DNA of 64,000 nt from assembly GCF_000014145.1 (NCBI RefSeq), contig NC_008255.1, forward strand, positions 3,922,001 through 3,986,000, given 5' to 3'. This document shows, one piece after another, positions 4,480 through 30,033 of the stretch; position 1 is the first letter of the stretch, and each line of letters opens with the position of its first letter. The position numbers were made by a program, and so were the translations under genes. Under the pieces are notes generated by a model. It worked only from the letters and a program-made list of their open reading frames with translations. It was not told the origin of the DNA and did no database searches. The DNA comes from Cytophaga hutchinsonii ATCC 33406. GTDB lineage: Bacteria > Bacteroidota > Bacteroidia > Cytophagales > Cytophagaceae.

Positions 4480-7400
4480 TTATTTCACAACCTGTATATA
4501 CCCGGTGTACGCTTCTGTATAGATGGTGCTGTGCAGGTCGATGATGTAGAAGTAGGTACCGTCAGGCAATACTTCCCCGTTGCGGAAGTTGGTCGCATCC
4601 CACTCCTTGGGATACCCTGTGCTCTTCCACACCAGGTTCCCCCAGCGGTTGTAGATCAGGAACTCGGCATTGGGGAAGCTCTCGATGTTCTCAATCTCCC
4701 AGGTATCGTTCACTCCATCCCCGTTTACTGTTATTACATTGGGTACCTTGATCGGACGCTCCACAAACACCATTACTTCATCATCATCATGGCACTGGCC
4801 TGTGGCATCACGAACCGTTAAGATATACATGATTGTCTTATCAGCTGTTAACTTCGGAGTGGCTGAACTGGCATCATCAAGACCCGTATCCGGGCTCCAG
4901 CTGTAGATTACTCCCCCGCTGCCGTTCAGCGTTACCTGCTCTCCTTCTTTTACCGTGATATCTGAACCCGCATTGGCTACCGGCGTCTGGATTACGGTAA
5001 GCGGTACTTCCGTGGAGATCGTGCCGCACGCTGCATTGCTTTCCTCTATCGAATAAAGTCCGCTTTCAAAGGCTTTATAGATGCTTGTGGTTGCTCCGCT
5101 TATCGCTACGCCATCCTTATACCACTGCAGCGTATTTGGAGGCGTTGCACTTCCTACTACAGCGGTGAACTCAAACCCTTCCGGGCTGCAGATCGGAAGC
5201 GGTGTCTCATTGATCACCGGAGCCGGTGTAGCAAGGATCGCTGGTGCGATCTTATTGGAAGCGTGCGGGTTGGTACCCAGTGCGCAGCCAAGATTGGAAG
5301 TAAGTTCCACATACACCTTATCCCCGGCAGTTAAGCCTGTGCTGGTAAAGCTTGTATTGGTTGCCCCGCTTACTGCGGTGGCTACACCTGCCTGTGATTC
5401 GATGAACCACTGGTAGGTCGGATTGTTGCCACCGGCTGTGGTATTGCTTACCGTAAAGCGGACCGGTAAACCGGAACACTGTACCGCAGGCGCTCCCGTG
5501 ATGCTTACCGAAGGCATGCTTGATACAACAATATTCAGGGCTACTTCATTGGAGATACCAGGACCGGCATTACAGCCGATTGAGGTCGTTACAACTACTT
5601 TTACTTTTTTGCCTGCATCGGATGCTGTGGTTGGGTTATAGCTGTATGTACTGCTGTTGGTGCCTACCGGTGCTCCGTCAAGTGTCCAGGCATACGTTAA
5701 GGTACCGGATCCCGTTGTGGTGGCCGTAAACACCATCGGCACTGAACCCTCGCATACCTGACCCGGATCGTTGATCTGGGCTGTTACTACTTCGGGGGTC
5801 GATACGGTGATGGTTACCATATTGCCGGTGACACTCCCGCATGTGCCGGACGTTTCCACGCGCTGGTAGTAGGTGGTTGCCGTTAATGCGCCCGGTGCAT
5901 AGCCAGATGTGGTGGCTCCGCCAATATTGCTGAACGAACCGGCTGTGCCTGTGGTGCTGCTCTGCCACTGGTAGGTATAGCTGCCTGTACCGCCTGTTGG
6001 CGCGCTTACCTGGGTAAGCGCTGCCGGAACCAATCCTGAACAGATTATCTGATCATCCTGGATAACGCCGGCCACTAAAGCAGGGTTAACCGTGATGTCG
6101 ATAATGTTGCTCATGGCTGTGTTGCATGGAGCCGGGATGCTTGTATAGGTTACAATTCTTCTGTAGGATACTTTGGTGCCTGTTTTGGCGCCGCTCGGTG
6201 TAAAGCCCGTACCGCTTACAGTGCCTGTGGCAGGGCCCCAGGCCCCGTTGTCAATGGATTCTTCCCACGTATAGGTCGGGGAAGTGCCTCCGCTGGCAGC
6301 GCTTGCTTCAGTAATCGCACCGGGAACGGTGTTGTTGCAGATCGTTAATAACGTTGTTGTGATTGTTCCCGCGCCAACTCCGGCATTTACCGTAACAGTG
6401 ACCGCTGCGGACTGTGCCGGAGTGGTGCTCGCGCAGGTTGCATTGCTGGTCGCTCTTACATAAATGCTGTAGGTCTGAGGGCTTAACGCTGCTGTGGTCG
6501 TTAACGATGTTGTGCTGTACGGGTTCGCCGTGGTGGAACCTGCTCCCTGGCTGGTTTCTGAACCTGCCGCTCCGATGAACCACTCATACGTTGGCGCAGG
6601 TGTGGAGCCTGAACCCGTTGCGGTAGCGGTAAACTGAACCGCATTACCTGAACAGATCGTGGCCTTATCAGCTGCAATGCTTACCGATAAGGTCGGTACA
6701 GGGGTAACCGTAACGGCTACCGGTGTGGAGACGGCGGTAGCTGACGTTACACACGTTAAGCCTGTTGTCATTACTACACGGAACGATTCCCCATTGGTAA
6801 CCGAAGAGGCTATATATGTGCTGTTTGTCGCTCCTGAAATATTCTGGTAAGTACCGCTCTTATTGGTCTGCCACTGGTACGTTGGGCCGGCAGGAGCTGT
6901 ACCCTGATTGGTCTGGGCTGTGATGCTGAAGGTTACACTCTCACTCGGACAGATCGTTGTCTTGTCTGCTGTGATCGATATCGTTGGCGTTACTTTTGTA
7001 TTCACAACCATCGTAGAACTCGCTGTCGCTGTTTTCGGGTTCGCACAGCTTAAGCTGCTGGTAATATCAACGGTGATAACTTCTCCGTCTACAAGCGTTG
7101 TGCTTGAATACGTATCTGTGGTTGAAGCCAACGCACCCGTTACAGAGGATGTCCATACATAAGCAGGTGTGCCGCCGTTGCCAACGCTGGCCGTAAAGGT
7201 AACATTGGTACCTTCGCAGATCGGGCCAGATGGTAACCGGGATAACGATACGGTAGCTGGTGCTACTGCTACAATAGAAATCTTAACCGCATTCGAAGCT
7301 ACTCCCGCGCATGTACCTTTCTTATCAACTCTTCTGTACCAGGTATCAACTGTTAAGGTACCCGGTGTATAGTCTTTTAATGTAGCCCCTGAAATTGCGC

Positions 7401-7551
7401 TGAAGCCCGCGCTCGCTGAGGTTGTTGATACTTCCCATACATAACCTGCCGTGGCAGTAGTTGAACCTCCTGCTGCTGCCGCGCCGCCGATCTGAGAGGG
7501 TGCTGCGCCTGAACAGATTGACTGGTCGGATGAAATAACAGCTGCTGTTAC
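4480..7551 (-). repeat. Long near-identical tract, copy 1 (3' end of the 2413-aa gene)
   Basis: This stretch matches 11896-14967 at a constant offset of 7416. By eye I found only four mismatches (near 7318, 7403, 7411 and 7468). The part up to about 6733 also matches 27780-30033 with slightly more differences. It encodes the last nine or so Ig-like domains and the CHU_C domain. Synonymous positions are also conserved, so the identity reflects recent copying rather than protein constraint. Confidence 0.9.
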
Positions 7552-10500
7552 TACAGGGTCAACCGTGATCTGAATAACATTGGAAACAGCGGCAGGACAA
7601 ACGCCTTTTGTATCTGTTCTTCTGTAATATGTTGTTGCGGTAAGTGTTCCCGGTGTGTAATCTTTTAACGCAGCACCTGAAACAGTTGTCCAGCCACTGG
7701 TTCCGTTTGCCGAACTTTCCCATACATAACTGGCTGTGGCCGTTGTTGAACCGCCTGCTGCCACAGCACCGCCGATCTGTGCAGGAGCTGTGCCCGAACA
7801 GATGGTCTGTGCCGTTGAAATTGTCGCTGCTGTTACTACAGGGTCAACCGTGATTTTTATCACATTCGATGCAACGCCTGTACATACACCTTTTTTATCC
7901 GTTCTTCTGTAATACGTATCTGCGGTAAGTGTTCCCGGTGTGTAGTCTTTTAACGCAGCACCTGAAACAGTTGTCCAGCCACTGGTTCCGTTTGCTGAAC
8001 TTTCCCATACATAACTGGCTGTGGCCGTTGTTGAACCGCCCGCTGCTACAGCACCGCCGATCTGGGCTGGAGCTGTGCCCGAACAGATGGTTTGTGCCGT
8101 TGAAATTGTCGCTGCCGTTACTACAGGGTCAACCGTGATTTTTATCACATTCGATGCAACACCTGTACATGCTCCTTTTTTATCCGTTCTTCTGTAATAC
8201 GTATCTGCTGTAAGTGTTCCCGGTGTATAGTCTTTTAACGTTGCACCTGAAACAGTTGTCCAGCCACTTGTTCCGTTTGCTGAACTTTCCCATACATAAC
8301 TGGCTGTGGCCGTTGTTGAACCGCCTGCTGCAACAGCGCCGCCGATCTGGGCTGGAGCTGTGCCCGAACAGATGGTCTGTGCCGTTGAAATTGTCGCTGC
8401 TGTTACTACAGGGTCAACCGTGATCTGAATAACATTGGAAACAGCGGCAGGACAAACGCCTTTTGTATCTGTTCTTCTGTAATATGTTGTTGCGGTAAGT
8501 GTTCCCGGTGTGTAATCTTTTAACGCAGCACCTGAAACAGTTGTCCAGCCACTGGTTCCGTTTGCTGAACTTTCCCATACATAACTGGCTGTGGCCGTTG
8601 TTGAACCGCCTGCTGCTACAGCACCGCCGATCTGTGCAGGAGCTGTGCCCGAACAGATGGTCTGTGCCGTTGAAATTGTCGCTGCCGTTACTACAGGGTC
8701 AACCGTGATTTTTATCACATTCGATGCAACGCCTGTACATACACCTTTTTTATCCGTTCTTCTGTAATACGTATCTGCGGTAAGTGTTCCCGGTGTGTAG
8801 TCTTTTAACGCAGCACCTGAAACAGTTGTCCAGCCACTGGTTCCGTTTGCTGAACTTTCCCATACATAACTGGCTGTGGCCGTTGTTGAACCGCCCGCTG
8901 CTACAGCACCGCCGATCTGGGCTGGAGCTGTGCCCGAACAGATGGTTTGTGCCGTTGAAATTGTCGCTGCCGTTACTACAGGGTCAACCGTGATTTTTAT
9001 CACATTCGATGCAACACCTGTACATGCTCCTTTTTTATCCGTTCTTCTGTAATACGTATCTGCTGTAAGTGTTCCCGGTGTATAGTCTTTTAACGTTGCA
9101 CCTGAAACAGTTGTCCAGCCACTTGTTCCGTTTGCTGAACTTTCCCATACATAACTGGCTGTGGCCGTTGTTGAACCGCCTGCTGCTACCGCGCCGCCCA
9201 TCTGTGCAGGAGCTGTGCCCGAACAGATGGTCTGTGCCGTTGAAATTGTCGCTGCTGTTACTACAGGGTCAACAACAACTACCACACTCGCCTCTGTATA
9301 ACAGGCTGCATTACCTGCGCTTCCGTCTTCAACGCGTAAGGTATAGGTACCTGCATCCGCTAACGCGCCCGTTAAGGCAAACGCCGGCGTAGACGTAGGG
9401 GTATTGGCCGGAAGCGCAATTACCGTTGCTGCAACCGGGGTAGTTACAGGGGTTGGTAAAACCTTGATCCACGAATACGTGAAGTTTGTATTCTGAGCTG
9501 CTGCTGTTACTGTTGCTCTGCCGATTAAATTCTGAGCCGTACCCTGACAAAGCGTTACCGTACCCGTAGACGGGGTCGTGATCGTTACTGCAGATGGTTT
9601 CGTGCAGCTCGGACATTTAACAGTAGACTCGATTATGTTTGAAACCGAATAATTTTTACACGGATCATTATCATTCGCATACTTAGGCGCTGTAAAATTA
9701 TTATTGGAAGTAAATACAGCATCTGTAGCGGCGATTACTCTGAAATAAATTTTATCGCCATTTACTGTTCCGGTATATGCTGCATTTAAGGAAGGATTTG
9801 CAATAGTAAAAACTTCTCCGGATTGTGGCGGAACAGCCAGGTTTTTCCATGAAGTATAATCCGCCGGTGTTTTAGTCCATTGATATAAATACTTCGGAGC
9901 ATTATTATAATACGCTTTTAAAAGAGTGCTTGGTTTTGAATTCAGATCCAATGCTGCCGTACACACATCTTTCTTAGTGGATATCGTAGGAATATCAAAG
10001 TACACATCTAAGGGCGGCGGAGCACATGCCATAATTTTGATATCATCAATAACAAGGTCATTACCGCACAGATATTGGTTTGAATTATTTATCACATCCA
10101 TAATAACAGACGTACTTCCGGCACCAAGTGTTATATTGCCGGCTACACGTACCCAAACGCCGCCGCCATCGCTCTGTCTTGTAGCAGTAGCATTTGCAGA
10201 AGATGTATTAGCTGTATTTGATCCATCTGTTAATTTAATAGTTACATCCACAGGAGAGTATGAAGGGCAACCTCCAGCTGGACCATTTGTAAATACTGCA
10301 ATCCAGCATTCAAAATACAATTGCTTTCCAAAACATAAATCAGGAATGGTGCGTGTATACAATTTCTGTCCCTGAGTATTAGGCGGACAGTTTATAAATA
10401 ACGCTCCTCCCGCTTTTGTACCGGAATGATCTAAGGAAACATTTGGCGGAGTTGTCGGGCCGGTTACCCGGTTTGCCCAATCCAGTTGTGCACCAGCATA

Positions 10501-11721
10501 AGCACCATCTGCAGCTGTAGCTGTAAGGTAAGATGCCACAGCATATTCTCCATCCTGTAATGGGCCTGTAGCCTTAAAAGTTGCTCCCAAAGGAGCAGGA
10601 GTTAATGTCCACCGGAAAGGAGTTGTTGTCGTTTTTGTAACGAGTTTCGGATTTGTTATATCTGTGTAATCCCATACTTTATAGGTCCTTCCAGTAGCAT
10701 CCGATAAATCCAGGGTTCCGAAATCATCATAATAAATAGTTTTTCGTGACGTTCCGGCACCTGTAACCGGATCAAGGCAGCACGTTATTGATTTTATCTG
10801 AACCACATTAGAAGCTATTGCCGTTCCGCTAGGTAATGGAGTAACAAGACATCTGAATTTATATGTAGCCGGTGTTGTTCCAACCTCGTATAACAATGCC
10901 TGGTTTGTTGCACCAGCAATACTGGTAAATGTTCCGGATCCATTATCCACCTGCCATTGATACGTTGCATTATAGGTAGATGTTGTCTGTACAGTAATCT
11001 GCTCACCTGCACAAACTTCTGTTCCTGAAGTAGAAATAATTGCCGGTTGAGGAAAACCCATTATCGCAATCTTTTTGATAGCCATCGCCTGGCATGAACC
11101 AAATCTGGTATTGTTCATTCTGAATACCATATTTCCTCCAGCATCTACAGTACCCGTTATTGTTGCACTTCTGCATTCACCCATACCTATCTGGGTTACA
11201 TCATTACCAAACAATTGGTTACTTGCATCTAAATTAATGCCTGCTTTAAATTCATTCCGCTGACCCGTACAAGATGCATACGTAGATTTTACCGCACTGC
11301 AATAATCAACAATAACGGAAACACTTGAATTAGGAACTAAACCTGTAAGTGAATATTGCAAAATGTTAAGATTACCACCACTTGAGGCTGGTGGTGCGTA
11401 TACATATGAATAATCAACAGGGATAAAGTTCTGATAACGCGTACTATCTAAGCGAATGGGTGTTGGTGTAACGGCATATAAATACCCAACATTAAATATA
11501 TTGGGATTTACATTGGTAGCTAATGGAGGAGTGGATGTTATACTTCCATTTTGAAAACCTATTTGAGTTATATCATCTAATCCAATATAAAATCTTGAAG
11601 CATTTCCTGGTGAAGGATCGAAGTCCGTACCGGAAACTAAAATCTGTGCATTAGTATGAATAGAAAGAAAAACTATTACTAATTGAATGATTATTTTTAA
11701 TCCGAGAGTATTTTTTTTCAT
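4480..11721 (-). CDS. Giant secreted Ig-like repeat protein with CHU_C (type IX, type B) sorting domain
   Basis: This encodes 2413 aa from ATG 11721; an upstream ATG at 11745 would add MWIKSVSK. The later start is preferred because MKKNTLGLKIII begins a normal signal peptide (cleavage after THTNA-like SIHTNA, before QILV). The N-terminal 240 residues are beta-rich and unrecognised, followed by one Ig-like domain (about 235-320). Residues about 415-565 look like a jelly-roll carbohydrate-binding fold (ends VIDDIKIMAC). From about 700 there are roughly 16 Ig-like modules, each usually with two cysteines. Six of these are the nearly identical 95-residue units encoded by 7556-9265. The last 87 residues (from VPNVITVNGDGVNDTW to YIQVVK) are the CHU_C domain that directs export through the type IX system and surface attachment. 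No catalytic domain is visible. It is probably a surface adhesin or polysaccharide-binding protein; the substrate is unknown. The 3' 3.07 kb is nearly identical to the next gene's. Confidence 0.9.
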   Translation of the reverse strand: MKKNTLGLKIIIQLVIVFLSIHTNAQILVSGTDFDPSPGNASRFYIGLDDITQIGFQNGSITSTPPLATNVNPNIFNVGYLYAVTPTPIRLDSTRYQNFIPVDYSYVYAPPASSGGNLNILQYSLTGLVPNSSVSVIVDYCSAVKSTYASCTGQRNEFKAGINLDASNQLFGNDVTQIGMGECRSATITGTVDAGGNMVFRMNNTRFGSCQAMAIKKIAIMGFPQPAIISTSGTEVCAGEQITVQTTSTYNATYQWQVDNGSGTFTSIAGATNQALLYEVGTTPATYKFRCLVTPLPSGTAIASNVVQIKSITCCLDPVTGAGTSRKTIYYDDFGTLDLSDATGRTYKVWDYTDITNPKLVTKTTTTPFRWTLTPAPLGATFKATGPLQDGEYAVASYLTATAADGAYAGAQLDWANRVTGPTTPPNVSLDHSGTKAGGALFINCPPNTQGQKLYTRTIPDLCFGKQLYFECWIAVFTNGPAGGCPSYSPVDVTIKLTDGSNTANTSSANATATRQSDGGGVWVRVAGNITLGAGSTSVIMDVINNSNQYLCGNDLVIDDIKIMACAPPPLDVYFDIPTISTKKDVCTAALDLNSKPSTLLKAYYNNAPKYLYQWTKTPADYTSWKNLAVPPQSGEVFTIANPSLNAAYTGTVNGDKIYFRVIAATDAVFTSNNNFTAPKYANDNDPCKNYSVSNIIESTVKCPSCTKPSAVTITTPSTGTVTLCQGTAQNLIGRATVTAAAQNTNFTYSWIKVLPTPVTTPVAATVIALPANTPTSTPAFALTGALADAGTYTLRVEDGSAGNAACYTEASVVVVVDPVVTAATISTAQTICSGTAPAQMGGAVAAGGSTTATASYVWESSANGTSGWTTVSGATLKDYTPGTLTADTYYRRTDKKGACTGVASNVIKITVDPVVTAATISTAQTICSGTAPAQIGGAVAAGGSTTATASYVWESSANGTSGWTTVSGAALKDYTPGTLTADTYYRRTDKKGVCTGVASNVIKITVDPVVTAATISTAQTICSGTAPAQIGGAVAAGGSTTATASYVWESSANGTSGWTTVSGAALKDYTPGTLTATTYYRRTDTKGVCPAAVSNVIQITVDPVVTAATISTAQTICSGTAPAQIGGAVAAGGSTTATASYVWESSANGTSGWTTVSGATLKDYTPGTLTADTYYRRTDKKGACTGVASNVIKITVDPVVTAATISTAQTICSGTAPAQIGGAVAAGGSTTATASYVWESSANGTSGWTTVSGAALKDYTPGTLTADTYYRRTDKKGVCTGVASNVIKITVDPVVTAATISTAQTICSGTAPAQIGGAVAAGGSTTATASYVWESSANGTSGWTTVSGAALKDYTPGTLTATTYYRRTDTKGVCPAAVSNVIQITVDPVVTAAVISSDQSICSGAAPSQIGGAAAAGGSTTATAGYVWEVSTTSASAGFSAISGATLKDYTPGTLTVDTWYRRVDKKGTCAGVASNAVKISIVAVAPATVSLSRLPSGPICEGTNVTFTASVGNGGTPAYVWTSSVTGALASTTDTYSSTTLVDGEVITVDITSSLSCANPKTATASSTMVVNTKVTPTISITADKTTICPSESVTFSITAQTNQGTAPAGPTYQWQTNKSGTYQNISGATNSTYIASSVTNGESFRVVMTTGLTCVTSATAVSTPVAVTVTPVPTLSVSIAADKATICSGNAVQFTATATGSGSTPAPTYEWFIGAAGSETSQGAGSTTANPYSTTSLTTTAALSPQTYSIYVRATSNATCASTTPAQSAAVTVTVNAGVGAGTITTTLLTICNNTVPGAITEASAASGGTSPTYTWEESIDNGAWGPATGTVSGTGFTPSGAKTGTKVSYRRIVTYTSIPAPCNTAMSNIIDITVNPALVAGVIQDDQIICSGLVPAALTQVSAPTGGTGSYTYQWQSSTTGTAGSFSNIGGATTSGYAPGALTATTYYQRVETSGTCGSVTGNMVTITVSTPEVVTAQINDPGQVCEGSVPMVFTATTTGSGTLTYAWTLDGAPVGTNSSTYSYNPTTASDAGKKVKVVVTTSIGCNAGPGISNEVALNIVVSSMPSVSITGAPAVQCSGLPVRFTVSNTTAGGNNPTYQWFIESQAGVATAVSGATNTSFTSTGLTAGDKVYVELTSNLGCALGTNPHASNKIAPAILATPAPVINETPLPICSPEGFEFTAVVGSATPPNTLQWYKDGVAISGATTSIYKAFESGLYSIEESNAACGTISTEVPLTVIQTPVANAGSDITVKEGEQVTLNGSGGVIYSWSPDTGLDDASSATPKLTADKTIMYILTVRDATGQCHDDDEVMVFVERPIKVPNVITVNGDGVNDTWEIENIESFPNAEFLIYNRWGNLVWKSTGYPKEWDATNFRNGEVLPDGTYFYIIDLHSTIYTEAYTGYIQVVK
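7556..9265 (-). repeat. Tandem array of six 285-bp units (two 855-bp higher-order copies)
   Basis: The string gggtc marking the unit boundary recurs at 7556, 7841, 8126, 8411, 8696, 8981 and 9266, exactly 285 bp apart. Each unit encodes one 95-residue Ig-like domain beginning DPVVTAATISTAQTICSG. In protein order the units run A-B-C-A-B-C. A ends each domain region with KKGACTGVAS, B with KKGVCTGVAS and C with TKGVCPAAVS. So 7556-8410 and 8411-9265 are near-identical 855-bp copies that differ at only a few bases. The reading frame is kept across any whole-unit gain or loss. Confidence 0.95.
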
Positions 11722-11792
11722 TTTCGATACAGATTTAATCCACATAGGGATACAAATTTACCATTTGTACAGTTTTTATACTAGTTTTTATA

Positions 11793-11800
11793 GAAAAGTA
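11793..11800 (-). promoter_or_regulatory. Candidate -7 element for the 2413-aa Ig-array gene
   Basis: The minus strand reads TACTTTTC within AGTTACTTTTC, 72 bp before the chosen ATG at 11721. It is close to the Bacteroidota -7 box TAnnTTTG. No clear TTG upstream element is present. It begins only 12 bp after the terminator stem at 11812-11859, so the upstream region is the terminator itself. Confidence 0.35.
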
Positions 11801-11811
11801 ACTATTTATAA

Positions 11812-11859
11812 AAAAAGAGTCATTTATTTCTTTATAATAAGAAATAAATGACTCTTTTT
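11812..11859 (-). terminator. Intrinsic terminator after the 2454-aa protein gene
   Basis: A perfect 21-bp inverted repeat (11812-11832 and 11839-11859) with a 6-base loop is flanked by an A-run and a T-run, and lies 36 bp beyond the stop codon at 11896. The stem is AT-rich but long. It separates this gene from the following minus-strand gene, whose candidate promoter lies directly behind it. Confidence 0.85.
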
Positions 11860-11895
11860 GAGATACTTATGAAATACGCCTATAAGAGTGAATTT

Positions 11896-14800
11896 TTATT
11901 TCACAACCTGTATATACCCGGTGTACGCTTCTGTATAGATGGTGCTGTGCAGGTCGATGATGTAGAAGTAGGTACCGTCAGGCAATACTTCCCCGTTGCG
12001 GAAGTTGGTCGCATCCCACTCCTTGGGATACCCTGTGCTCTTCCACACCAGGTTCCCCCAGCGGTTGTAGATCAGGAACTCGGCATTGGGGAAGCTCTCG
12101 ATGTTCTCAATCTCCCAGGTATCGTTCACTCCATCCCCGTTTACTGTTATTACATTGGGTACCTTGATCGGACGCTCCACAAACACCATTACTTCATCAT
12201 CATCATGGCACTGGCCTGTGGCATCACGAACCGTTAAGATATACATGATTGTCTTATCAGCTGTTAACTTCGGAGTGGCTGAACTGGCATCATCAAGACC
12301 CGTATCCGGGCTCCAGCTGTAGATTACTCCCCCGCTGCCGTTCAGCGTTACCTGCTCTCCTTCTTTTACCGTGATATCTGAACCCGCATTGGCTACCGGC
12401 GTCTGGATTACGGTAAGCGGTACTTCCGTGGAGATCGTGCCGCACGCTGCATTGCTTTCCTCTATCGAATAAAGTCCGCTTTCAAAGGCTTTATAGATGC
12501 TTGTGGTTGCTCCGCTTATCGCTACGCCATCCTTATACCACTGCAGCGTATTTGGAGGCGTTGCACTTCCTACTACAGCGGTGAACTCAAACCCTTCCGG
12601 GCTGCAGATCGGAAGCGGTGTCTCATTGATCACCGGAGCCGGTGTAGCAAGGATCGCTGGTGCGATCTTATTGGAAGCGTGCGGGTTGGTACCCAGTGCG
12701 CAGCCAAGATTGGAAGTAAGTTCCACATACACCTTATCCCCGGCAGTTAAGCCTGTGCTGGTAAAGCTTGTATTGGTTGCCCCGCTTACTGCGGTGGCTA
12801 CACCTGCCTGTGATTCGATGAACCACTGGTAGGTCGGATTGTTGCCACCGGCTGTGGTATTGCTTACCGTAAAGCGGACCGGTAAACCGGAACACTGTAC
12901 CGCAGGCGCTCCCGTGATGCTTACCGAAGGCATGCTTGATACAACAATATTCAGGGCTACTTCATTGGAGATACCAGGACCGGCATTACAGCCGATTGAG
13001 GTCGTTACAACTACTTTTACTTTTTTGCCTGCATCGGATGCTGTGGTTGGGTTATAGCTGTATGTACTGCTGTTGGTGCCTACCGGTGCTCCGTCAAGTG
13101 TCCAGGCATACGTTAAGGTACCGGATCCCGTTGTGGTGGCCGTAAACACCATCGGCACTGAACCCTCGCATACCTGACCCGGATCGTTGATCTGGGCTGT
13201 TACTACTTCGGGGGTCGATACGGTGATGGTTACCATATTGCCGGTGACACTCCCGCATGTGCCGGACGTTTCCACGCGCTGGTAGTAGGTGGTTGCCGTT
13301 AATGCGCCCGGTGCATAGCCAGATGTGGTGGCTCCGCCAATATTGCTGAACGAACCGGCTGTGCCTGTGGTGCTGCTCTGCCACTGGTAGGTATAGCTGC
13401 CTGTACCGCCTGTTGGCGCGCTTACCTGGGTAAGCGCTGCCGGAACCAATCCTGAACAGATTATCTGATCATCCTGGATAACGCCGGCCACTAAAGCAGG
13501 GTTAACCGTGATGTCGATAATGTTGCTCATGGCTGTGTTGCATGGAGCCGGGATGCTTGTATAGGTTACAATTCTTCTGTAGGATACTTTGGTGCCTGTT
13601 TTGGCGCCGCTCGGTGTAAAGCCCGTACCGCTTACAGTGCCTGTGGCAGGGCCCCAGGCCCCGTTGTCAATGGATTCTTCCCACGTATAGGTCGGGGAAG
13701 TGCCTCCGCTGGCAGCGCTTGCTTCAGTAATCGCACCGGGAACGGTGTTGTTGCAGATCGTTAATAACGTTGTTGTGATTGTTCCCGCGCCAACTCCGGC
13801 ATTTACCGTAACAGTGACCGCTGCGGACTGTGCCGGAGTGGTGCTCGCGCAGGTTGCATTGCTGGTCGCTCTTACATAAATGCTGTAGGTCTGAGGGCTT
13901 AACGCTGCTGTGGTCGTTAACGATGTTGTGCTGTACGGGTTCGCCGTGGTGGAACCTGCTCCCTGGCTGGTTTCTGAACCTGCCGCTCCGATGAACCACT
14001 CATACGTTGGCGCAGGTGTGGAGCCTGAACCCGTTGCGGTAGCGGTAAACTGAACCGCATTACCTGAACAGATCGTGGCCTTATCAGCTGCAATGCTTAC
14101 CGATAAGGTCGGTACAGGGGTAACCGTAACGGCTACCGGTGTGGAGACGGCGGTAGCTGACGTTACACACGTTAAGCCTGTTGTCATTACTACACGGAAC
14201 GATTCCCCATTGGTAACCGAAGAGGCTATATATGTGCTGTTTGTCGCTCCTGAAATATTCTGGTAAGTACCGCTCTTATTGGTCTGCCACTGGTACGTTG
14301 GGCCGGCAGGAGCTGTACCCTGATTGGTCTGGGCTGTGATGCTGAAGGTTACACTCTCACTCGGACAGATCGTTGTCTTGTCTGCTGTGATCGATATCGT
14401 TGGCGTTACTTTTGTATTCACAACCATCGTAGAACTCGCTGTCGCTGTTTTCGGGTTCGCACAGCTTAAGCTGCTGGTAATATCAACGGTGATAACTTCT
14501 CCGTCTACAAGCGTTGTGCTTGAATACGTATCTGTGGTTGAAGCCAACGCACCCGTTACAGAGGATGTCCATACATAAGCAGGTGTGCCGCCGTTGCCAA
14601 CGCTGGCCGTAAAGGTAACATTGGTACCTTCGCAGATCGGGCCAGATGGTAACCGGGATAACGATACGGTAGCTGGTGCTACTGCTACAATAGAAATCTT
14701 AACCGCATTCGAAGCTACTCCCGCGCATGTACCCTTCTTATCAACTCTTCTGTACCAGGTATCAACTGTTAAGGTACCCGGTGTATAGTCTTTTAATGTA

Positions 14801-14967
14801 GCCCCTGAAATTGCGCTGAAGTCCGCGCTCCCTGAGGTTGTTGATACTTCCCATACATAACCTGCCGTGGCAGTAGTTGAACCCCCTGCTGCTGCCGCGC
14901 CGCCGATCTGAGAGGGTGCTGCGCCTGAACAGATTGACTGGTCGGATGAAATAACAGCTGCTGTTAC
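11896..14967 (-). repeat. Long near-identical tract, copy 2 (3' end of the 2454-aa gene)
   Basis: This is the partner of 4480-7551 (offset 7416). Identity starts at the stop codon and stops abruptly at about 14967, where ctacagggtc in the other copy becomes ctaaaggatc and the two genes diverge. The flanking terminators differ, so the copying unit ended close to the stop codon. Confidence 0.9.
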
Positions 14968-19260: not shown

Positions 19261-19305
19261 ATGTATATAATTCTGTAATTATTTTTTTGGATTTATCCAT
19301 TAGTT

Positions 19306-19320: not shown

Positions 19321-19350
19321 TAGCTTCTATACTTAATACATTTTTTTATG

Positions 19351-19381
19351 TAAAAGTAACTTTTGGCATTTCACGTTACCA
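19351..19381 (-). promoter_or_regulatory. Candidate promoter of the 2454-aa gene
   Basis: The minus strand reads TTG, 21 bases, then TACTTTTA. This fits the Bacteroidota arrangement TTG-N19-21-TAnnTTTG with one mismatch in the last base. The -7 box is at 19351-19358, 91 bp before the ATG. It sits in the 158-bp gap behind the GH8 gene ending at 19419, where no terminator is evident. Confidence 0.45.
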
Positions 19382-19418
19382 ATCTTCCTTCGATTAATCC
19401 TATGTGTATTGCAACAAC

Positions 19419-22400: not shown

Positions 22401-25400
22401 CACCGGACCGCGTGTTTCCTGTAATAATCCATCCCGATAATGTTTCCAGGTAAAATAATAACCGCCATTTATCGAAGCCTTTCCGGTACTATCAACAATT
22501 CCTTTTAACTGAAACATACTTCCTATGGATTCGCATAAGGTATCGTTTTCGATCGGCATGATAGTGTCCGCTACAACCGAATTGTTCACGCGCACCTTTA
22601 TGTAATTTGTTGCTACAGCCGGACAGAATTTAACTGAATCTTTACGCACATAATATTGTGTTACTGCCGGAGATGCCGGATTATAGGTAACACCCGTTGC
22701 TCCGCTGATTTTTGTTAACGCTGGTGTAGCTGTTGTATCGTTGGTTGTATACCATTGCTGTGCTATAATGGTACCGGCATAATTTGCAGCGGGTGCAACT
22801 TCTGTTAAAACAGCTGCCGCATCACCTTTACAGATTTCCTGATGCTTTTCAATGATTGCTTTTTTAGCAATGCCCTGATTGATTACAATGCGTACCGATA
22901 TGGTATCCATGCATTTTTTTGCAAGCTTTCCATCCTGAACAATGAGGTAATACATACCAGAGTCGGTAAGTACTGCTGCCCTGGTTGCTGCCAGGAAATT
23001 TTTATAAGGCAACGGCCCGCTTGTTGTGATTAATGCACCGTCCCGGTAGTGCTGCCAGGTAAAATAATATCCGCCGTTTTTAGAAGCACGCGCTCCGGTG
23101 GAATCTGCCAGGTTAATGGCCGCAGACAGATTGAAATTCTCCCCAATACATAGTGTATCTCTGAGAATCGGCTGTATACTGGTTATGTTAGGAGTATTAT
23201 TTACCCGGATGGTATCTACATTCGTTACGGCATTTGCACATACACCGGATGAATCTATTCTTCTGTAATACGTGGTTGCTGTAGGCGAGCCTATTGTTAG
23301 TCCGGTAGCCGTAATGCTGAACGGAGCAACGTCTGTCCACGGACCGGTTCCGGAAACGGCGGAGCGCTGCCATTTATAATTTTTAACAGCTATCGCTCCT
23401 GTACTTGCTGTACCGGTTAAGGCTGCTGCTGCTGTGCCCAGGCATATTTCCTGGCTTGCTGAAATTATACCTGCAACAGCTGCTGTATCAATGCGTACCC
23501 GAATGCTGTTTTCTTTGAAACACGTTGTTGTGCCGGTATTTCCATCTTCTACACGTAATGTATACGTTCCTGAATCAGCTGCAACAGTAACCGCTTTAAC
23601 GTAATCCGCATATGTTTTACTTGCAGCAGTAACTGCGATTCCATTCCTGTACCAGGTATAAAAATAATTGGCGTTTGCCGGAGTTGCTGTTCCCTTTATA
23701 GTTAATGCACTGCCTCTGCATAAGGCAGGTGTTGTTGTAGAAACGGTAACTGTTGCTGGAGGTGTACAGGAAACACTTGTACCGCTGCAGGTAACGATTG
23801 ACTGAGCTGCAATTGAATTCGTTGCCTGCCCAAGCATATTCGCATATGCATTATTAACAATCTTACCGGTTGCCGAACACGTGGCAACTGTTCCTGTCCA
23901 TGTTCTTGTTATAACTGTACCATATAAAACAGGCCCTGCAATAACCGGCCAGCTGATTGTGCCGGCTGTATTAGTACCGCTGTTTGAAGATGTGCCATAT
24001 GTTATCCCGGCTGGCACCGGATCGGAGATTATGATGTCATAGGCTGAATCCATTTCAGAATGCAGGGAAACAACGCTGTGGCTATTGTATGTTTCCTGGT
24101 TAGCAGGACTTCCGTTTAAAAAGCCTATATATCCTGCCTTCACCGTTATGCCGGTTACAGTAAGCAATGGCGCACCGGTTAAACTTCCCACCCATAAATT
24201 CAATTGATTGCCATTTAATACAATTTTAAAATTCTGTGGTGATCCGGGATATCCGAATTTTTGAGGTAATGTAAATAAGGCAGTAGTGCCGTTCCATACA
24301 TTAATTTCCAGATCACCGGCTCCCGGATTTACTTTAAATGAAACGTAGGAACCACTGGCAATGGTGCTTCCGCTTTGCCGTAATGCAATGGAAAAAATTG
24401 AGAATGGTGCCAGTTCAAGTGTACCTGTAATGGTGCCGTTTGTTCCATGAGCCCTTTTATGAACCAGCATGGTTCCGGTACCATTGGTTGTCGTATTTGA
24501 AATTTTTGTTCCGAAACCCCAGGTTCCGCCGTATTGATCCCATTCGGCAGCATTACTCATGGAAGCATCAATGATTGCTCCATGTGTCTGCTCATATTCA
24601 ATGCTATAATTGATCGGATCACCAACAACGTAGGCTGCCTTATCAGCAGTCTTAGTCATTGTTGTTGGTACGGGAGGTAATATCACATCATCGCATGTTA
24701 CTGTTACCCGGGCAGTATCTCTTTTTTTAGATTCACCCAAACCCTCTATCCATGCCGGGTTGATATGTGTCTGATCGGCCTTCGGGCATACACCCGGAGT
24801 AGTAAATGCTGCGATCGCTTTATATTCCAGTGAGCCTTTTTGACCGACCTGTAATTTTGGAATTGTCCAGGTAATAACCCTGTTTGCAGGATTGTAGGTT
24901 GCTGTAACACCTAAGGTAGTTTGCTGAATCCAGCCATTCCAGGTAAGACCCAGGGGAAGTGTATCCCGGACAACAACATTTTCAACATCCCGGCCGGGAA
25001 GCGGTCCGTTACCATATATCCTTCTCCAGGTATATCCATCCCACTCTTCAATAAGAACATTGTCTACTGTTTTTGTAGCTACTTCGCAGGCATCTTTATG
25101 CCAGGATGTAACAGGAATATTTAAATTATGTGGATCTGTCCAATCGTTTGTAACAGGGAAATACTTATCTCCATCGGGCGCCTGTGCGGCTGCATCCCAC
25201 GACCAGTCATCCGACCAATCTATGGAACCATAATTGGATGTATACAGATCCCACACGGCACGGAGTGGTTCCGTTCCCCCCTGGTGTATCCGAGCAGCCG
25301 TGCCATACATGGCAGAAAGCTGTGGGGTGGTGGTAGCAATCTGGTTTGCAAACTGAATAATCACACGCTGATTCCATTTTCCACGTGCATCCTGTCCGGG

Positions 25401-27737
25401 GGTAATCGACTCCTGCGTAAATGTTACGCCTGTGGCCGCACCACCTTCATAAATTGTATTCCGCAGCGCCCAGCCCGCTGTACATGGCCCAACACCACTC
25501 ACACACGTATAGCTGTTGTCATTTAAAAATGCGGAGATCCGGTAATTCTTGTAATTGATATAAGGCTCCGCAGCACCATGGAACAAACGGATTTTTATGC
25601 CGCGTGTATCACCATTAGCACCATAGGTACCCTGTGCATACGAGAAAAAAACATTTGGACGGCCTCCGTTGATCCAGCCTGCTGTAGAAGAGTTTTCAAA
25701 ATCAATTTTAAATTTTACTTCTGTATTATTCTGCACCTTGGAATAATTCACGGATTTATCAATCAGTAATGCACGCTTTACAATGTCAATACAGTTGCGT
25801 TCCATCACTTCGGTAACATTATTCGGATATTCATTTGTCGTCCAGCTTTTACTATTTGTAGCCGTGATCGTAGCCGTCGCACAATATCTGCCTTCTGCCT
25901 CTTCTTTTGCTTTTAGGCTGTAGGTTCTTATCCCTTGTGTAGGCGTGATTCCACCTGCAGTAGAGAAGCCAGATACCGAACCTACGTTCCAGGTTATGGA
26001 ATGCGTACCGGCATTGTATGAACCGCCATTGGAAGCAGAACCAGGTACATAATCGAAATCATCCGGAAGTGTTTCAACGATTGTAACACCTGTAGCAGCT
26101 AACTTTCCATAGTTTCTATACGACAATGTAAATTGAAACTGGTCGCCTGTTGCCCCGTACGTCTTATCTACTGCACGGTAAATTTTTATATTTGCAATTG
26201 GCTTTACTACGAGTGGATCCTGAAAGTTTCCAGACAGGATCAACATACCCAGTAAACGAAAGAATCCATGGAAATAAACAGGCTTTGATGTTAAGTAGCG
26301 GTCACCGGCATCTGTGATATCCCATTCAATGGCACATTGCCGGAACATATCACCCATCACCTCATAATCCTGGGCAGCAATGGTTGATGGAGCCGATGTG
26401 GCCATGCCCCAGTTGATCGGTAATGGAAATAATTCATCTCCTGTATTCGGATCATACTGAACACTGGTTATGGGCGGTCCTGTATACGTCAGATCCGGGC
26501 CGCCGCCCAGGTCCTTACATGGATTACCCCAGGGTGCCTGGCGCTGATCTTTCACAAAACCGGAAAATCTTTTTCCGATCAGCTGTTCAAATGAATTCGG
26601 CACACCTGCCTGTACAGTATGTGTAACAGGGTCCCAGGTATAATCCGGATCTCCATGCCATACATAATTTAATATGGTTCTCCAGGCTGCCCGGAAATCT
26701 TCTCCTAGATTAAAACTTGAAAACGTAACATTGCTGCCATTTACAGCGGCCCATCCTGCATGCGGTACCCCTGCAGGATTGTCCAGCAGCTTACCCATGA
26801 TCCAGTCGCTGGATGCCTCAGCACGATACATCTGGTTGATCTCCCAGGGATCTAACGCTTCAGCGCTCATTACATTTCTAAACGAATAAAAATATGCCGG
26901 TGCGGCGTAATCAATATGTAATTGCGTAGGTCCTGCAAACTCCGGACACCACAACGGATCTCCGCTGCCAAAATTTGTTGTCTCAAGCCAGGTATTTCCA
27001 TTTTTTAAATATCCATCAAAACCTACGTTACCGGAAACACTTCTGCAATCCGCAACACTACCGGACATGAATCCTCTGTTCTCGCGTTCCACAAGACCTC
27101 TGATAACGCCAAGCGCTTCATCCTTATAGCTGATCGGTGTACCATTCGCAGCCGTATAACCGGAGTTGTCTCCCCATTGTTTCCAGGCCATTAACAGACC
27201 CAATGCAATATCTACATCACCATCCGTTGCCGCGTCACCGCCCGGCTCTGCAAGCGCATTTTTTCCATACTGATATCCTGCACGAATAATCGCTCCTGTT
27301 CTGTAATTAGGATGTAATACTCTTCGTATATCATGTTCACGCATCCAGATCCCGTCAAACGTGGTTTTATCACCCATATAGGCAGCCGCAATCATTGCAT
27401 AACCGGCACCTTCTGAACAGTCATACGGACAACCGATGTTTGAAAGAATATAATTAACTCCCTGCCACGATTCGCCTGTATATTCATATCTGTTTGCTTC
27501 AATCTGCCAGGCTTCACGCATGATTTTTTCCATCTCCGCATGTACCACACCCGGAGCATTTGTTGTCGCTAAGTTTCCTAACGAGTGGCTGCCTTCAAAA
27601 TCGTACGATAAAAACTGCGGAAATGGAAAATTCGGATTTCCGGAATTGATCTGTACCGTAACCTGTGCTTTTGAAAGCACTGTCACGAATACAAATATTA
27701 TCAGATACAAACCTTTTATATAACCACTTCTTTGCAT
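19419..27737 (-). CDS. GH8 family glycoside hydrolase, giant multidomain, CHU_C sorting domain
   Basis: This encodes 2772 aa. The signal peptide is residues 1-24 (cleavage after LSKA). Residues about 28-510 are a glycoside hydrolase family 8 domain: NFPFPQF at the front, CSEGAGYAMIAAAYMGDKTT with the probable proton donor Glu109, and ATDGDVDIALGLLMAWKQW with Asp172/Asp174. DYAAPAYF (Asp276) may hold the general base, a tentative placement. GH8 enzymes invert and cut internal beta-1,4 bonds in cellulose, xylan, lichenan or chitosan; which one is not decidable here. Behind it lie a DUF11-like domain, a domain shared with the neighbouring GH8 protein, a second DUF11-like domain and a LamG/jelly-roll-like segment (about 1050-1230). 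About twelve Ig-like modules follow, some containing YYLIVQDG, and then CHU_C (ends YIQVVK). Its C-terminal third is clearly diverged from its neighbours. The start is 42 bp behind the other GH8 gene, so they are probably one operon. Confidence 0.92.
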   Translation of the reverse strand: MQRSGYIKGLYLIIFVFVTVLSKAQVTVQINSGNPNFPFPQFLSYDFEGSHSLGNLATTNAPGVVHAEMEKIMREAWQIEANRYEYTGESWQGVNYILSNIGCPYDCSEGAGYAMIAAAYMGDKTTFDGIWMREHDIRRVLHPNYRTGAIIRAGYQYGKNALAEPGGDAATDGDVDIALGLLMAWKQWGDNSGYTAANGTPISYKDEALGVIRGLVERENRGFMSGSVADCRSVSGNVGFDGYLKNGNTWLETTNFGSGDPLWCPEFAGPTQLHIDYAAPAYFYSFRNVMSAEALDPWEINQMYRAEASSDWIMGKLLDNPAGVPHAGWAAVNGSNVTFSSFNLGEDFRAAWRTILNYVWHGDPDYTWDPVTHTVQAGVPNSFEQLIGKRFSGFVKDQRQAPWGNPCKDLGGGPDLTYTGPPITSVQYDPNTGDELFPLPINWGMATSAPSTIAAQDYEVMGDMFRQCAIEWDITDAGDRYLTSKPVYFHGFFRLLGMLILSGNFQDPLVVKPIANIKIYRAVDKTYGATGDQFQFTLSYRNYGKLAATGVTIVETLPDDFDYVPGSASNGGSYNAGTHSITWNVGSVSGFSTAGGITPTQGIRTYSLKAKEEAEGRYCATATITATNSKSWTTNEYPNNVTEVMERNCIDIVKRALLIDKSVNYSKVQNNTEVKFKIDFENSSTAGWINGGRPNVFFSYAQGTYGANGDTRGIKIRLFHGAAEPYINYKNYRISAFLNDNSYTCVSGVGPCTAGWALRNTIYEGGAATGVTFTQESITPGQDARGKWNQRVIIQFANQIATTTPQLSAMYGTAARIHQGGTEPLRAVWDLYTSNYGSIDWSDDWSWDAAAQAPDGDKYFPVTNDWTDPHNLNIPVTSWHKDACEVATKTVDNVLIEEWDGYTWRRIYGNGPLPGRDVENVVVRDTLPLGLTWNGWIQQTTLGVTATYNPANRVITWTIPKLQVGQKGSLEYKAIAAFTTPGVCPKADQTHINPAWIEGLGESKKRDTARVTVTCDDVILPPVPTTMTKTADKAAYVVGDPINYSIEYEQTHGAIIDASMSNAAEWDQYGGTWGFGTKISNTTTNGTGTMLVHKRAHGTNGTITGTLELAPFSIFSIALRQSGSTIASGSYVSFKVNPGAGDLEINVWNGTTALFTLPQKFGYPGSPQNFKIVLNGNQLNLWVGSLTGAPLLTVTGITVKAGYIGFLNGSPANQETYNSHSVVSLHSEMDSAYDIIISDPVPAGITYGTSSNSGTNTAGTISWPVIAGPVLYGTVITRTWTGTVATCSATGKIVNNAYANMLGQATNSIAAQSIVTCSGTSVSCTPPATVTVSTTTPALCRGSALTIKGTATPANANYFYTWYRNGIAVTAASKTYADYVKAVTVAADSGTYTLRVEDGNTGTTTCFKENSIRVRIDTAAVAGIISASQEICLGTAAAALTGTASTGAIAVKNYKWQRSAVSGTGPWTDVAPFSITATGLTIGSPTATTYYRRIDSSGVCANAVTNVDTIRVNNTPNITSIQPILRDTLCIGENFNLSAAINLADSTGARASKNGGYYFTWQHYRDGALITTSGPLPYKNFLAATRAAVLTDSGMYYLIVQDGKLAKKCMDTISVRIVINQGIAKKAIIEKHQEICKGDAAAVLTEVAPAANYAGTIIAQQWYTTNDTTATPALTKISGATGVTYNPASPAVTQYYVRKDSVKFCPAVATNYIKVRVNNSVVADTIMPIENDTLCESIGSMFQLKGIVDSTGKASINGGYYFTWKHYRDGLLQETRGPVKYEDFPVTARAAVEADSGTYYLIIQDGAGATVCMDTLKTKVVVYKNCVVIPPACKKPVSVTAQLVGGNDTLCTGNALHLAKDIIDTLPAPQDGYYFSWRRINSQGSSVLYGPSLTYADLTIPAVAPADSGTYYLIVQDGLTAPAACTTTSAGIAIGVHTPIITPAVIAASDTICSGTVPAVFTETAAATGGSGTPYRHQWYVSTDSFKTVAGTSILIGSNLKTYQAPALTTTSYYIRIDSAGVCPKVSTNIITIQVDAPTVAGTVGRDTVVCAGSPVSEFRESTPASGGTAIYTYKWQESGDNTTFTDIAGATGSTYQSPDIFTRTYFRRIDSSGICAGTPTNSIFVDVVNGVDPGQIAGPTTTICYNTAPLTVFSNVAAASNGSGGPGSESYQWQKSTDNIFWTDISGETGLTFTENNLLTDTTYYRRRVGMGPGTCDTSYTSTVAVNVYDPLTPGVLSGDTTICSGKSIAVLEITPVSGGGEPNSLTYEWIQSTDKGMNWSAASGTNNQVSYTTPVLTDSIWYARIVTTVCNIDTTNIVHVHVDSINTVNIAMMDASTCIGSDVTFAPVFKGEGTAPVFEWFTSASSAGPWSPVTGAAAASYTVVNPQVTDNGTYYKVRLSSSFVCNSGTAESIVLLTVQDVIEPKVAISSSPAGTVCDTITSVTYTAVPVQGAGAVTTYQWYDGITNTPVPSETNQTYTPAAAPAAGQQVYVVMTTDLVCASPSTARSETLQLDIIPKPRPDIINNDTTICTPYEVRLKIKGNTGGTLQWYKDGAVIPGATTTQYIVPVSDFPGAEYVLVEDNGACSSSDTVEVIMWESPTANAGTDIYAVEGETISLNGSVSSNATNYVWIPAASLSDAYVLQPSLTVPALTTVYTLVAYNNGNVCSGSDAVTVIVEKKIKIPNVITVNGDGVNDTWDIENIQNFPDAEILIYNRWGNLVWKSAGYPKQWDATNYRNGEVLPDGTYFYIIDLHTERVKETFSGYIQVVK

Positions 27738-27779
27738 TGAATTTTCTTTTAGTAATTAATTTTATTTTATTACATACAC

Positions 27780-30033
27780 CTATTTCACAACCTGTATATA
27801 CCCGGTGTATGCTTCTGTATAAATGGTACTGTGCAGGTCGATGATGTAGAAGTAGGTACCGTCAGGCAATACTTCCCCGTTGCGGAAGTTGGTCGCATCC
27901 CACTCCTTGGGATACCCTGTGCTCTTCCACACCAGGTTCCCCCAGCGGTTGTAGATCAGGAACTCGGCATTGGGGAAGCTCTCGATGTTCTCAATCTCCC
28001 AGGTATCGTTCACTCCATCCCCGTTTACTGTTATTACATTGGGTACCTTGATCGGACGCTCCACAAACACCATTACTTCATCATCATCATGGCACTGGCC
28101 TGTGGCATCACGAACCGTTAAGATATACATGATTGTCTTATCAGCTGTTAACTTCGGAGTGGCTGAACTGGCATCATCAAGACCCGTATCCGGGCTCCAG
28201 CTGTAGATTACTCCCCCGCTGCCGTTCAGCGTTACCTGCTCTCCTTCTTTTACCGTGATATCTGAACCCGCATTGGCTACCGGCGTCTGGATTACGGTAA
28301 GCGGTACTTCCGTGGAGATCGTGCCGCACGCTGCATTGCTTTCCTCTATCGAATAAAGTCCGCTTTCAAAGGCTTTATAGATGCTTGTGGTTGCTCCGCT
28401 TATCGCTACGCCATCCTTATACCACTGCAGCGTATTTGGAGGCGTTGCACTTCCTACTACAGCGGTGAACTCAAACCCTTCCGGGCTGCAGATCGGAAGC
28501 GGTGTCTCATTGATCACCGGAGCCGGTGTAGCAAGGATCGCTGGTGCGATCTTATTGGAAGCGTGCGGGTTGGTACCCAGTGCGCAGCCAAGATTGGAAG
28601 TAAGTTCCACATACACCTTATCCCCGGCAGTTAAGCCTGTGCTGGTAAAGCTTGTATTGGTTGCCCCGCTTACTGCGGTGGCTACACCTGCCTGTGATTC
28701 GATGAACCACTGGTAGGTCGGATTGTTGCCACCGGCTGTGGTATTGCTTACCGTAAAGCGGACCGGTAAACCGGAACACTGTACCGCAGGCGCTCCCGTG
28801 ATGCTTACCGAAGGCATGCTTGATACAACAATATTCAGGGCTACTTCATTGGAGATACCAGGACCGGCATTACAGCCGATTGAGGTCGTTACAACTACTT
28901 TTACTTTTTTGCCTGCATCGGATGCTGTGGTTGGGTTATAGCTGTATGTACTGCTGTTGGTGCCTACCGGTGCTCCGTCAAGTGTCCAGGCATACGTTAA
29001 GGTACCGGATCCCGTTGTGGTGGCCGTAAACACCATCGGCACTGAACCCTCGCATACCTGACCCGGATCGTTGATCTGGGCTGTTACTACTTCGGGGGTC
29101 GATACGGTGATGGTTACCATATTGCCGGTGACACTCCCGCATGTGCCGGACGTTTCCACGCGCTGGTAGTAGGTGGTTGCCGTTAATGCGCCCGGTGCAT
29201 AGCCAGATGTGGTGGCTCCGCCAATATTGCTGAACGAACCGGCTGTGCCTGTGCTGCTGCTCTGCCACTGGTAGGTATAGCTGCCTGTACCGCCTGTTGG
29301 CGCGCTTACCTGGGTAAGCGCTGCCGGAACCAATCCTGAACAGATTATCTGATCATCCTGGATAACGCCGGCCACTAAAGCAGGGTTAACCGTGATGTCG
29401 ATAATGTTGCTCATGGCTGTGTTGCATGGAGCCGGGATGCTTGTATAGGTTACAATTCTTCTGTAGGATACTTTGGTGCCTGTTTTGGCGCCGCTCGGTG
29501 TAAAGCCCGTACCGCTTACAGTGCCTGTGGCAGGGCCCCAGGCCCCGTTGTCAATGGATTCTTCCCACGTATAGGTCGGGGAAGTGCCTCCGCTGGCAGC
29601 GCTTGCTTCAGTAATCGCACCGGGAACGGTGTTGTTGCAGATCGTTAATAACGTTGTTGTGATTGTTCCCGCGCCAACTCCGGCATTTACCGTAACAGTG
29701 ACCGCTGCGGACTGTGCCGGAGTGGTGCTCGCGCAGGTTGCATTGCTGGTCGCTCTTACATAAATGCTGTAGGTCTGAGGGCTTAACGCTGCTGTGGTCG
29801 TTAACGATGTTGTGCTGTACGGGTTCGCCGTGGTGGAACCTGCTCCCTGGCTGGTTTCTGAACCTGCCGCTCCGATGAACCACTCATAGGTTGGCGCTGG
29901 TGTGGAGCCTGAACCCGTTGCGCTAGCGGTAAACTGAACCGCATTACCTGAACAGATCGTGGTCTTATCTGCTGCGATGCTTACCGATAAGGTCGGTACA
30001 GGGGTAACCGTTACGGCTACCGGTGTGGAGACG
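27780..30033 (-). repeat. Long near-identical tract, copy 3 (3' end of the 2807-aa GH8 gene)
   Basis: This matches 4480-6733 at an offset of 23300. Differences seen by eye are three near the stop codon (27810-27830), one near 29253, and a rising number from about 29888 until similarity drops near 30033. It carries the last Ig-like modules and the CHU_C domain. The cluster of differences at both ends looks like the edges of a conversion tract. Confidence 0.88.

Follow-up and report, generated by a model that had tools for sequence, protein, structure and literature searches.

Different heads on near-identical tails: probable concerted evolution of a stalk-plus-sorting-domain module among giant genes of Cytophaga hutchinsonii

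How do neighbouring genes that begin differently come to end in almost the same DNA? The question is raised by a stretch of 64,000 nucleotides of Cytophaga hutchinsonii ATCC 33406 (hereafter the window; positions 3,922,001-3,986,000 of contig NC_008255.1, assembly GCF_000014145.1), in which, according to the open reading frame (ORF) listing, positions 4480-36203 are occupied by four giant co-oriented genes. The genome analysed (G000) is a single 4.43-Mb contig. Genes 1, 2, 3 and 4 will also be called B, C, D and E, and A and F are further copies of the shared sequence; 'head' will denote the 5′ or N-terminal part of a gene, 'tail' the shared 3′ part, and 'address' its end, which encodes a type B sorting domain of the type IX secretion system (T9SS). 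A preliminary description had pointed to the 3′ ends of genes 1, 2 and 4 and proposed either gene conversion or a recent duplication. The explanation that we favour, with a probability of roughly 80%, is concerted evolution of the shared stalk-plus-address module through non-reciprocal recombination, the uniform address serving one type of PorP/SprF shuttle. That is, the 3′ 2.26 kb (for A and F, 4.6 kb of coding sequence) would have been overwritten among five genes by non-reciprocal homologous recombination, the heads staying distinct.

Self-comparison of the window by BLASTN bore out the near-identity. Genes 1 and 2 share a gap-free block of 3,090 bp (4480-7569 versus 11896-14985) with 6 mismatches (99.81%), and each of them matches gene 4 over 2,255 bp with 11 mismatches (99.51%; 4481-6735 and 11897-14151 versus 27781-30035). 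The earlier count of four mismatches in about 3.07 kb was therefore correct as to near-identity and too low as to number; in the pairwise alignment the six mismatches are confined to roughly the 5′-most 300 bases of the block, and genes 1 and 2 are identical throughout their final 2,256 bp. The three copies first described are likewise genuine, and a whole-genome search with the block brought the number to five, adding A and F at 99%. Copies A, B, C and E of the cluster are direct repeats with a spacing of 7-16 kb, and F, a gene with an RCC1-type head, lies about 298 kb from the cluster on the opposite strand. Gene 4 (27781-30565) and F match over 2,785 bp with 19 mismatches, and A and F over as much as 5,757 bp with 13 mismatches, a tract made up of 4.6 kb of coding sequence, the intergenic region and an entire PorP/SprF gene. 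Window positions 1-1723 are the start of this A/F block, which ends beyond the PorP/SprF gene and outside the window, whereas the identity of B, C and E to the other copies ends at the stop codon on the 3′ side. At the 5′ end, the shared blocks have sharp edges. In C. hutchinsonii the block edges lie near the start of an Ig-like domain, but in G003, a one-contig genome of another genus, the 5′ edge falls inside a domain; as the two disagree, we make no claim that block edges prefer domain boundaries.

The final 751 codons of the shared module encode Ig-like domains and, at the C-terminus, the T9SS type B sorting domain; no residue differs among the five copies in the last 82. The sorting domain (TIGR04131 / CHU_C) scores above the curated cut-off in the five shared tails and also in gene 3, and hydrophobic N-termini, putative Sec signals, are visible by inspection in the translations of genes 1 to 4. 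The 3′ end of gene 3 had been described as diverged, and so it is: it is 59% identical to the shared tail at the amino acid (aa) level over 179 aligned residues, and 75% at the nucleotide level over the last 246 coding bases. The label of gene 3 as a GH8 gene also stood, except that it is not the only one, since gene 4 carries a GH8 head too (39% identity between the two heads), and the end given for gene 1, position 11721, has to be moved to 11745.

Chance similarity is excluded by the length of the matches. Purifying selection on the protein alone could keep the tails alike without any recombination, and it would fit the identity of the last 82 residues as well as the fact that, among the 26 variable sites in the last 2,253 coding bases of the five tails, 20 are third-position changes. 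However, identity extends to silent sites, as the preliminary description had remarked: four-fold degenerate sites are 97-100% identical in the four of ten tail pairs that were tested (A-F, B-F, B-C and B-E), against 31-48% across species for the helicase, polA, a glycosidase, the gene 3 head and the F head, and 36% within the genome for both the A/F heads and the gene 3/gene 4 heads. Silent sites have thus diverged almost to saturation in the heads and hardly at all in the tails. Moreover, the F tail is only 71% identical (aa) to that of F′, the counterpart of F in G001, the draft genome of a congener and sister species. Because silent sites are identical, selection alone is refuted, and we regard its probability as practically nil.

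The distribution of variants within the tails points to exchange. Twenty-two of the 26 variable sites separate A/F from B/C, and they lie in two clusters, 7 sites on the 5′ side and 15 on the 3′ side. The 1,428-bp gap that separates the clusters was reached in none of 100,000 uniform scatters; the same holds for third positions alone. Read from 5′ to 3′, gene 4 has the A/F states in the 5′ cluster, then B/C states, then A/F states at -48 and -30 and the B/C state at -9. The gene 4 tail thus reads as a mosaic of A/F-type and B/C-type variants. Run tests were significant (uncorrected) in 4 of the 10 pairs, all of which involve gene 4 (A-E, P 0.001; B-E, C-E and E-F, 0.0001).

Overwriting of tails within a genome should leave heads and tails with different histories. 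F adjoins the same helicase gene in G000, G001 and the draft genome G002, and in G001 a PorP gene and polA stand behind the F counterpart. The F head is 74% identical (aa) to C2 of G001, the gene that adjoins this helicase, and 64% identical to a gene from another family (G063), but only 40-43% identical (protein) to the head of A in the same genome; the A head, in turn, is closer to six genes of other genera in its family (44-53%) than to F. In a 13-row tree of heads, which contains two long rows (G2_C171 and G109_C271) and two open forks, the approximately unbiased (AU) test rejected a clade of A and F (p 4e-8). The tails group otherwise. Over the last 246 coding bases, the five tails of C. 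hutchinsonii are 98-100% identical to one another and the four homogenised tails of G001 96-98%, whereas identity between the two sets is 67-70%. A 24-row tree of this region groups the five C. hutchinsonii tails (87/76), the four of G001 (92/95) and five of G003 (100/100), and AU tests rejected the tail clades F+F′ (p 4e-202) and E+E′ (p 1e-62), E′ being the G001 counterpart of E. With five more tails from g10, the genus containing G015, G016, G017 and G018, and with two rows dropped that were identical to others, the resulting 27-row tree supports the same groups (G000 96/86, G001 100/99, G003 100/99) and F+F′ was again rejected (p 3e-103). Paralogs of one genome therefore resemble each other more closely than counterparts in two genomes do (those in G001 being assigned through gene order), and only in a segment of the gene. 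This is the sense in which the gene conversion half of the original proposal stands: A and F have old heads of different affinities and young tails shared with their genome, and the variants form mosaics. The recent-duplication half does not hold as a simple whole-gene copy of A and F, which is ruled out by heads that are too diverged (43% aa, 36% at four-fold sites) and differently related.

A subtler form of duplication would be a recent copying of the gene, or of the gene with its PorP neighbour, followed by the acquisition of new heads through upstream recombination, in which case the tails would be young since the genes themselves are young at their loci. The sharp 5′ edges are in keeping with it, as are the different heads found at the corresponding places in G002, and a gene-plus-PorP unit may have arrived at the position of A, where G001 and G002 have no PorP gene between the tail and the neighbouring 280-aa gene. 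Yet F is evidently old at its locus, given its helicase neighbour and its conserved head, and its tail nevertheless fails to group with that of F′. In addition, the gene 3 head is 85% identical to C34 of G001, and the tail just before C34 is homogenised with the other G001 tails. Furthermore, blocks of several ages (99.8%, 90%, 89% and about 80% identity) connect different pairs of genes. Duplication with head replacement thus seems to us quite improbable.

Several observations weigh against concerted evolution as we propose it. Gene 3 sits in the middle of the cluster with an unhomogenised tail. The remaining run tests were null (A-F, P 0.19; B-F and C-F, 0.22; A-B, A-C and B-C, 1.0), and the 13 four-gamete conflicts among the tail variants all involve the single site -1474, possibly one recurrent mutation. 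In the 27-row tree one g10 tail type stands closer to the C. hutchinsonii tails than those of G001 do (94/93), and the 67-70% between F and F′ is therefore in part a distance between paralogs. Head conservation is uneven as well: the RCC1 head at the F position of G002 is only 33% like F, and gene e of G003 is closer to gene 2 (43%) than is a gene of G001 whose head is of the gene-2 type (32%), which means that heads evolve fast or are exchanged. The assignment of F′ and E′ rests on gene order in G001, whose contigs are broken and end in tails. Near-identity was looked for in g10, at two loci each in G015, G016 and G018, and was not found, and a survey of 39 genomes of the order, with most matches under E <= 1e-15, found tied sorting-domain scores in the C. 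hutchinsonii genome only, a survey insensitive enough to have missed the known case of G001. The closeness to g10 also has another consequence: F and F′ carry tails of different lineages, and homogenisation in C. hutchinsonii and in G001 appears to have drawn on different tails.

The PorP/SprF gene gives a further view of the process. Such a gene is adjacent to A and to F and to none of genes 1 to 4; in the whole genome, 9 of the 37 sorting-domain matches have a PorP gene within 500 bp downstream, and 15 PorP proteins score above the cut-off. The PorPs of A and F are 99.7% identical and group with PorPs of G001 (99/98), the G001 counterpart being 79% identical (aa). The head of A resembles genes of G016, G017, G010 and G003, and placements of its PorP with those of G016/G017, or of all four of these genomes, were rejected (p 2e-4 and 3e-4). 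This grouping indicates that the shuttle gene of A is of the F type and makes F to A the simplest direction of copying, so that A was probably the recipient. Since the PorP/SprF gene downstream is part of the overwritten A/F tract, address and likely shuttle would have been homogenised as one. In G001, two tandem PorP/SprF-like genes (L040 8359-10511; 85% alike in aa) stand behind the F counterpart, where C. hutchinsonii has one. At the far end of the A/F block (positions 3917967 and 4220928 of the contig), the boundary, judged by eye, cuts through the left arm of a hairpin that resembles a terminator. The right arms differ between the two sites and each pairs with its own left arm (GAGCGG/CCGCTC and GAGTGG/CCACTC), which suggests that the hairpin has been kept.

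As to mechanism, recombination between tails, direct or inverted, near or far, would turn one tail into another, while the heads would have diverged too far to be involved. Within the cluster, unequal crossing-over could also spread tails by deleting or duplicating head units. Exchanges of this kind are expected between A, B, C and E from their direct orientation and spacing, each would leave an in-frame fusion because the shared part is 3′, and gene 1 contains an array of 285-bp units that shows recent tandem duplication; in its part 7590-8389, the array is 95-100% identical per 100 bases to the sequence 855 bp (three units) further on, indicating a recent duplication of three units. Unequal crossing-over fails, however, for F, about 298 kb away and inverted, and for an inverted pair in G003, where a crossover would invert the chromosome between the copies. 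Crossing-over by itself is therefore a rather unlikely account of the whole pattern, although it could easily operate alongside conversion. The process was probably gene conversion, because crossing-over in the cluster would delete or duplicate heads and an inversion of about 298 kb would follow from a crossover between A and F. A replication-symmetric placement of the inverted A/F pair was considered and set aside, as A (3.92 Mb) and F (4.22 Mb) both lie on one side of dnaA (3.45 Mb) by coordinates. With regard to site-specific inversion of the shufflon kind, no recombinase was found among the Pfam-scanned proteins, which cover part of the ORFs, and short inverted sites were not searched for.

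Similar cases exist in other genomes. Three RCC1-type genes are present in G003, all with a PorP/SprF-like gene behind them, and two of the three share 5,251 bp with 7 mismatches, in inverted orientation, 1.58 Mb apart by coordinates and with the shuttle gene included, the heads of this pair being 48% identical. A gene with another head adjoins one of the pair, and its tail is 94% identical over 3.5 kb. The same genome also has a 1,137-bp direct repeat (G003:3873916-3876024, L037; 97%, offset 972 bp). Four contigs of the G001 draft end in tails that are 96-98% alike, and two contigs of the G002 draft have 3.15 kb of stalk in common at 90%. These cases bear on the suspicion that one consensus tail was pasted into several loci during assembly or polishing. 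Repeats of 2-5 kb are indeed error-prone, and polishing could have induced over-similarity, as judged from the assembly alone. But the C. hutchinsonii copies lie in one contig with unique flanks and differ by variants specific to each (B and C, however, agree at every base over 2,256 bp), an inverted pair of 5.3 kb with 7 mismatches occurs in a second one-contig genome, the contig-end tails of G001 are not 100% identical, and comparable patterns recur in G001, G002 and G003, so that we consider an artefact very improbable. In the 27-row tree, each of the two g10 tail types brings together tails of different species, and the tails of one genome do not form a group, as expected where homogenisation is absent. 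In this genus, one tail type is combined with gene-2-type heads in G015 and G018 (L052, L056) and with RCC1-type heads in G016 and G017 (L054, L057), suggesting head exchange between species. A related-locus search returned 9 loci from other organisms with at most 31% identity, which were not used. Identity, copy number, mosaic structure, the phylogenetic conflict between heads and tails and the similar cases elsewhere are established at the level of sequence.

What the uniform address does is a matter of analogy. In Flavobacterium johnsoniae, type B C-terminal domains (CTDs) use specific PorP/SprF shuttles: three orphan CTDs, from substrates without an adjacent shuttle gene and more than 44% identical to each other, use one shuttle, and another shuttle, besides its own CTD, also exported a CTD of 68% identity, which the shuttles of CTDs with 43% and 26% identity to it did not export (PMC12618676). 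On this specificity and on the PorP-type anchoring model (PMC9143113) rests the functional reading, in which a uniform address would matter for shuttle recognition. By having the same last 82 residues, the five proteins would depend on a single type of PorP/SprF shuttle for pick-up, transport or anchoring; genes 1, 2 and 4, which carry the address that is linked to the PorP of A and F, are accordingly predicted to use an A/F-type shuttle. Selection would keep the address uniform and recombination would supply the uniformity, which suggests selection for one shared, 'preferred' address, as the preliminary description had worded it; homogenisation may also be neutral, without functional gain. 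A more far-reaching idea, which we hold tentatively and at somewhat worse than even odds, is a lock-and-key co-conversion in which the copied unit is stalk, type B sorting domain and PorP/SprF gene, the receptor changing along with the address. It would amount to a display platform with swappable heads that puts unrelated surface enzymes and adhesins on one export and anchoring line, with far inverted copies as donor and recipient, and would have arisen independently in at least two genera.

The positions of the features are collected in the table, together with blocks of stalk that are older than the shared module. Elsewhere in the window there is a 5,165-aa ORF (48467-63964) with PKD, Ig-like and many right-handed beta-helix (NosD-like) matches, and a 1,878-aa ORF (41018-46654) with a single fn3 domain above the Pfam cut-off; two further large ORFs (46684-48387, 567 aa, and 39745-41043, 432 aa) had zero Pfam matches over the cut-off.

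Table. Features of the giant-gene cluster, in window coordinates.
Feature	Position	Strand	Description
Gene A, 5′ part	1..4216	-	2367 aa whole; RCC1 head; leaves window leftward to G000:3919113
Gene 1 (B)	4480..11745	-	2421 aa; head without Pfam match above cut-off, Ig-like stalk, type B sorting domain
Gene 2 (C)	11896..19260	-	2454 aa; head without Pfam match ('CGTETF' type, our own label), 43% identical to G003 gene e
Gene 3 (D)	19419..27737	-	2772 aa; GH8 + DUF11 head; tail not homogenised
Gene 4 (E)	27780..36203	-	2807 aa; GH8 + DUF11 head (Pfam)
B/C shared 3′ block	4480..7569	-	Core 4480-6735 common to all five copies
C/B shared 3′ block	11896..14985	-	Core 11896-14151 common to all five copies
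E shared 3′ block	27780..30565	-	Mosaic of A/F-type and B/C-type variants
Type B T9SS sorting domains (TIGR04131)	4492..4752 (gene 1), 11908-12168 (gene 2), 19428-19691 (gene 3), 27792-28052 (gene 4)	-	Profile search
Tandem array in gene 1 stalk	7432..9273	-	285-bp unit, 6.5 copies, 91%
Older stalk block in gene 1	9275..9607	-	89% to window 1386-1721 (gene A), about 0.33 kb
Older stalk block in gene 2	15442..16250	-	90% to window 683-1488 (gene A), about 0.8 kb

Type B substrates are thought to be sorted by a specific match of sorting domain and shuttle, which raises the question of how new cargo joins a shuttle. The genes studied here provide natural sets in which a single, identical address is joined to different heads, and pairs with a near-identical address and shuttle but with heads that differ; they are natural experiments on shuttle specificity and a concrete instance of segment-limited concerted evolution in Bacteroidota surface proteins. 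They also show that draft assemblies can lose such genes, as in G001, where contigs end in the shared tails. Homogenised T9SS sorting tails, or co-conversion of address and shuttle, were not found in the literature searched, which was thin on subscription journals; we know of no report of homogenised T9SS type B tails, segment-limited concerted evolution itself having already been described.

Parts of this arrangement have parallels in known systems. As in our case, several type B substrates depend on one PorP/SprF shuttle in F. johnsoniae, but their CTDs are more than 44% identical, not 100%, and the sections covered do not report homogenisation (PMC12618676). In F. psychrophilum, a 10-kb inverted repeat with adhesin, PorP/SprF and outer-membrane protein genes flanks an inversion of about 1.9 Mb and, like the A/F pair, combines such genes in far-apart inverted copies, a likeness drawn from the description and not from sequence; the passage concerned does not speak of distinct heads on a common tail (PMC5808330). 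The adhesin regions of rgpA, kgp and hagA of Porphyromonas gingivalis resemble the present genes in their modular combinations, which are ascribed to recombination, and differ in that the variation is between strains, the passages covered making no mention of a shuttle gene in the shared block (PMC5266723). P. gingivalis is described as having a single type B substrate, PG1035 (PMC12618676), which places rgpA, kgp and hagA in another sorting class. The parallel that remains, from Helicobacter pylori, concerns related outer-membrane proteins, whereas the heads here belong to different families. The C-terminus of the H. pylori bab and hom paralogs is a membrane domain. As in C. hutchinsonii, the paralogs babA/babB and homA/homB have divergent 5′ parts and 3′ parts that are alike within a strain; a review describes the 3′ segments as being under concerted evolution, the exchange between the bab loci being most likely RecA-dependent intragenomic recombination (PMC3960876, which cites Pride and Blaser 2002). 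Unlike in H. pylori, the shared part in C. hutchinsonii is a rod with a T9SS address, it is present at five loci and, in A and F, it includes the shuttle gene.

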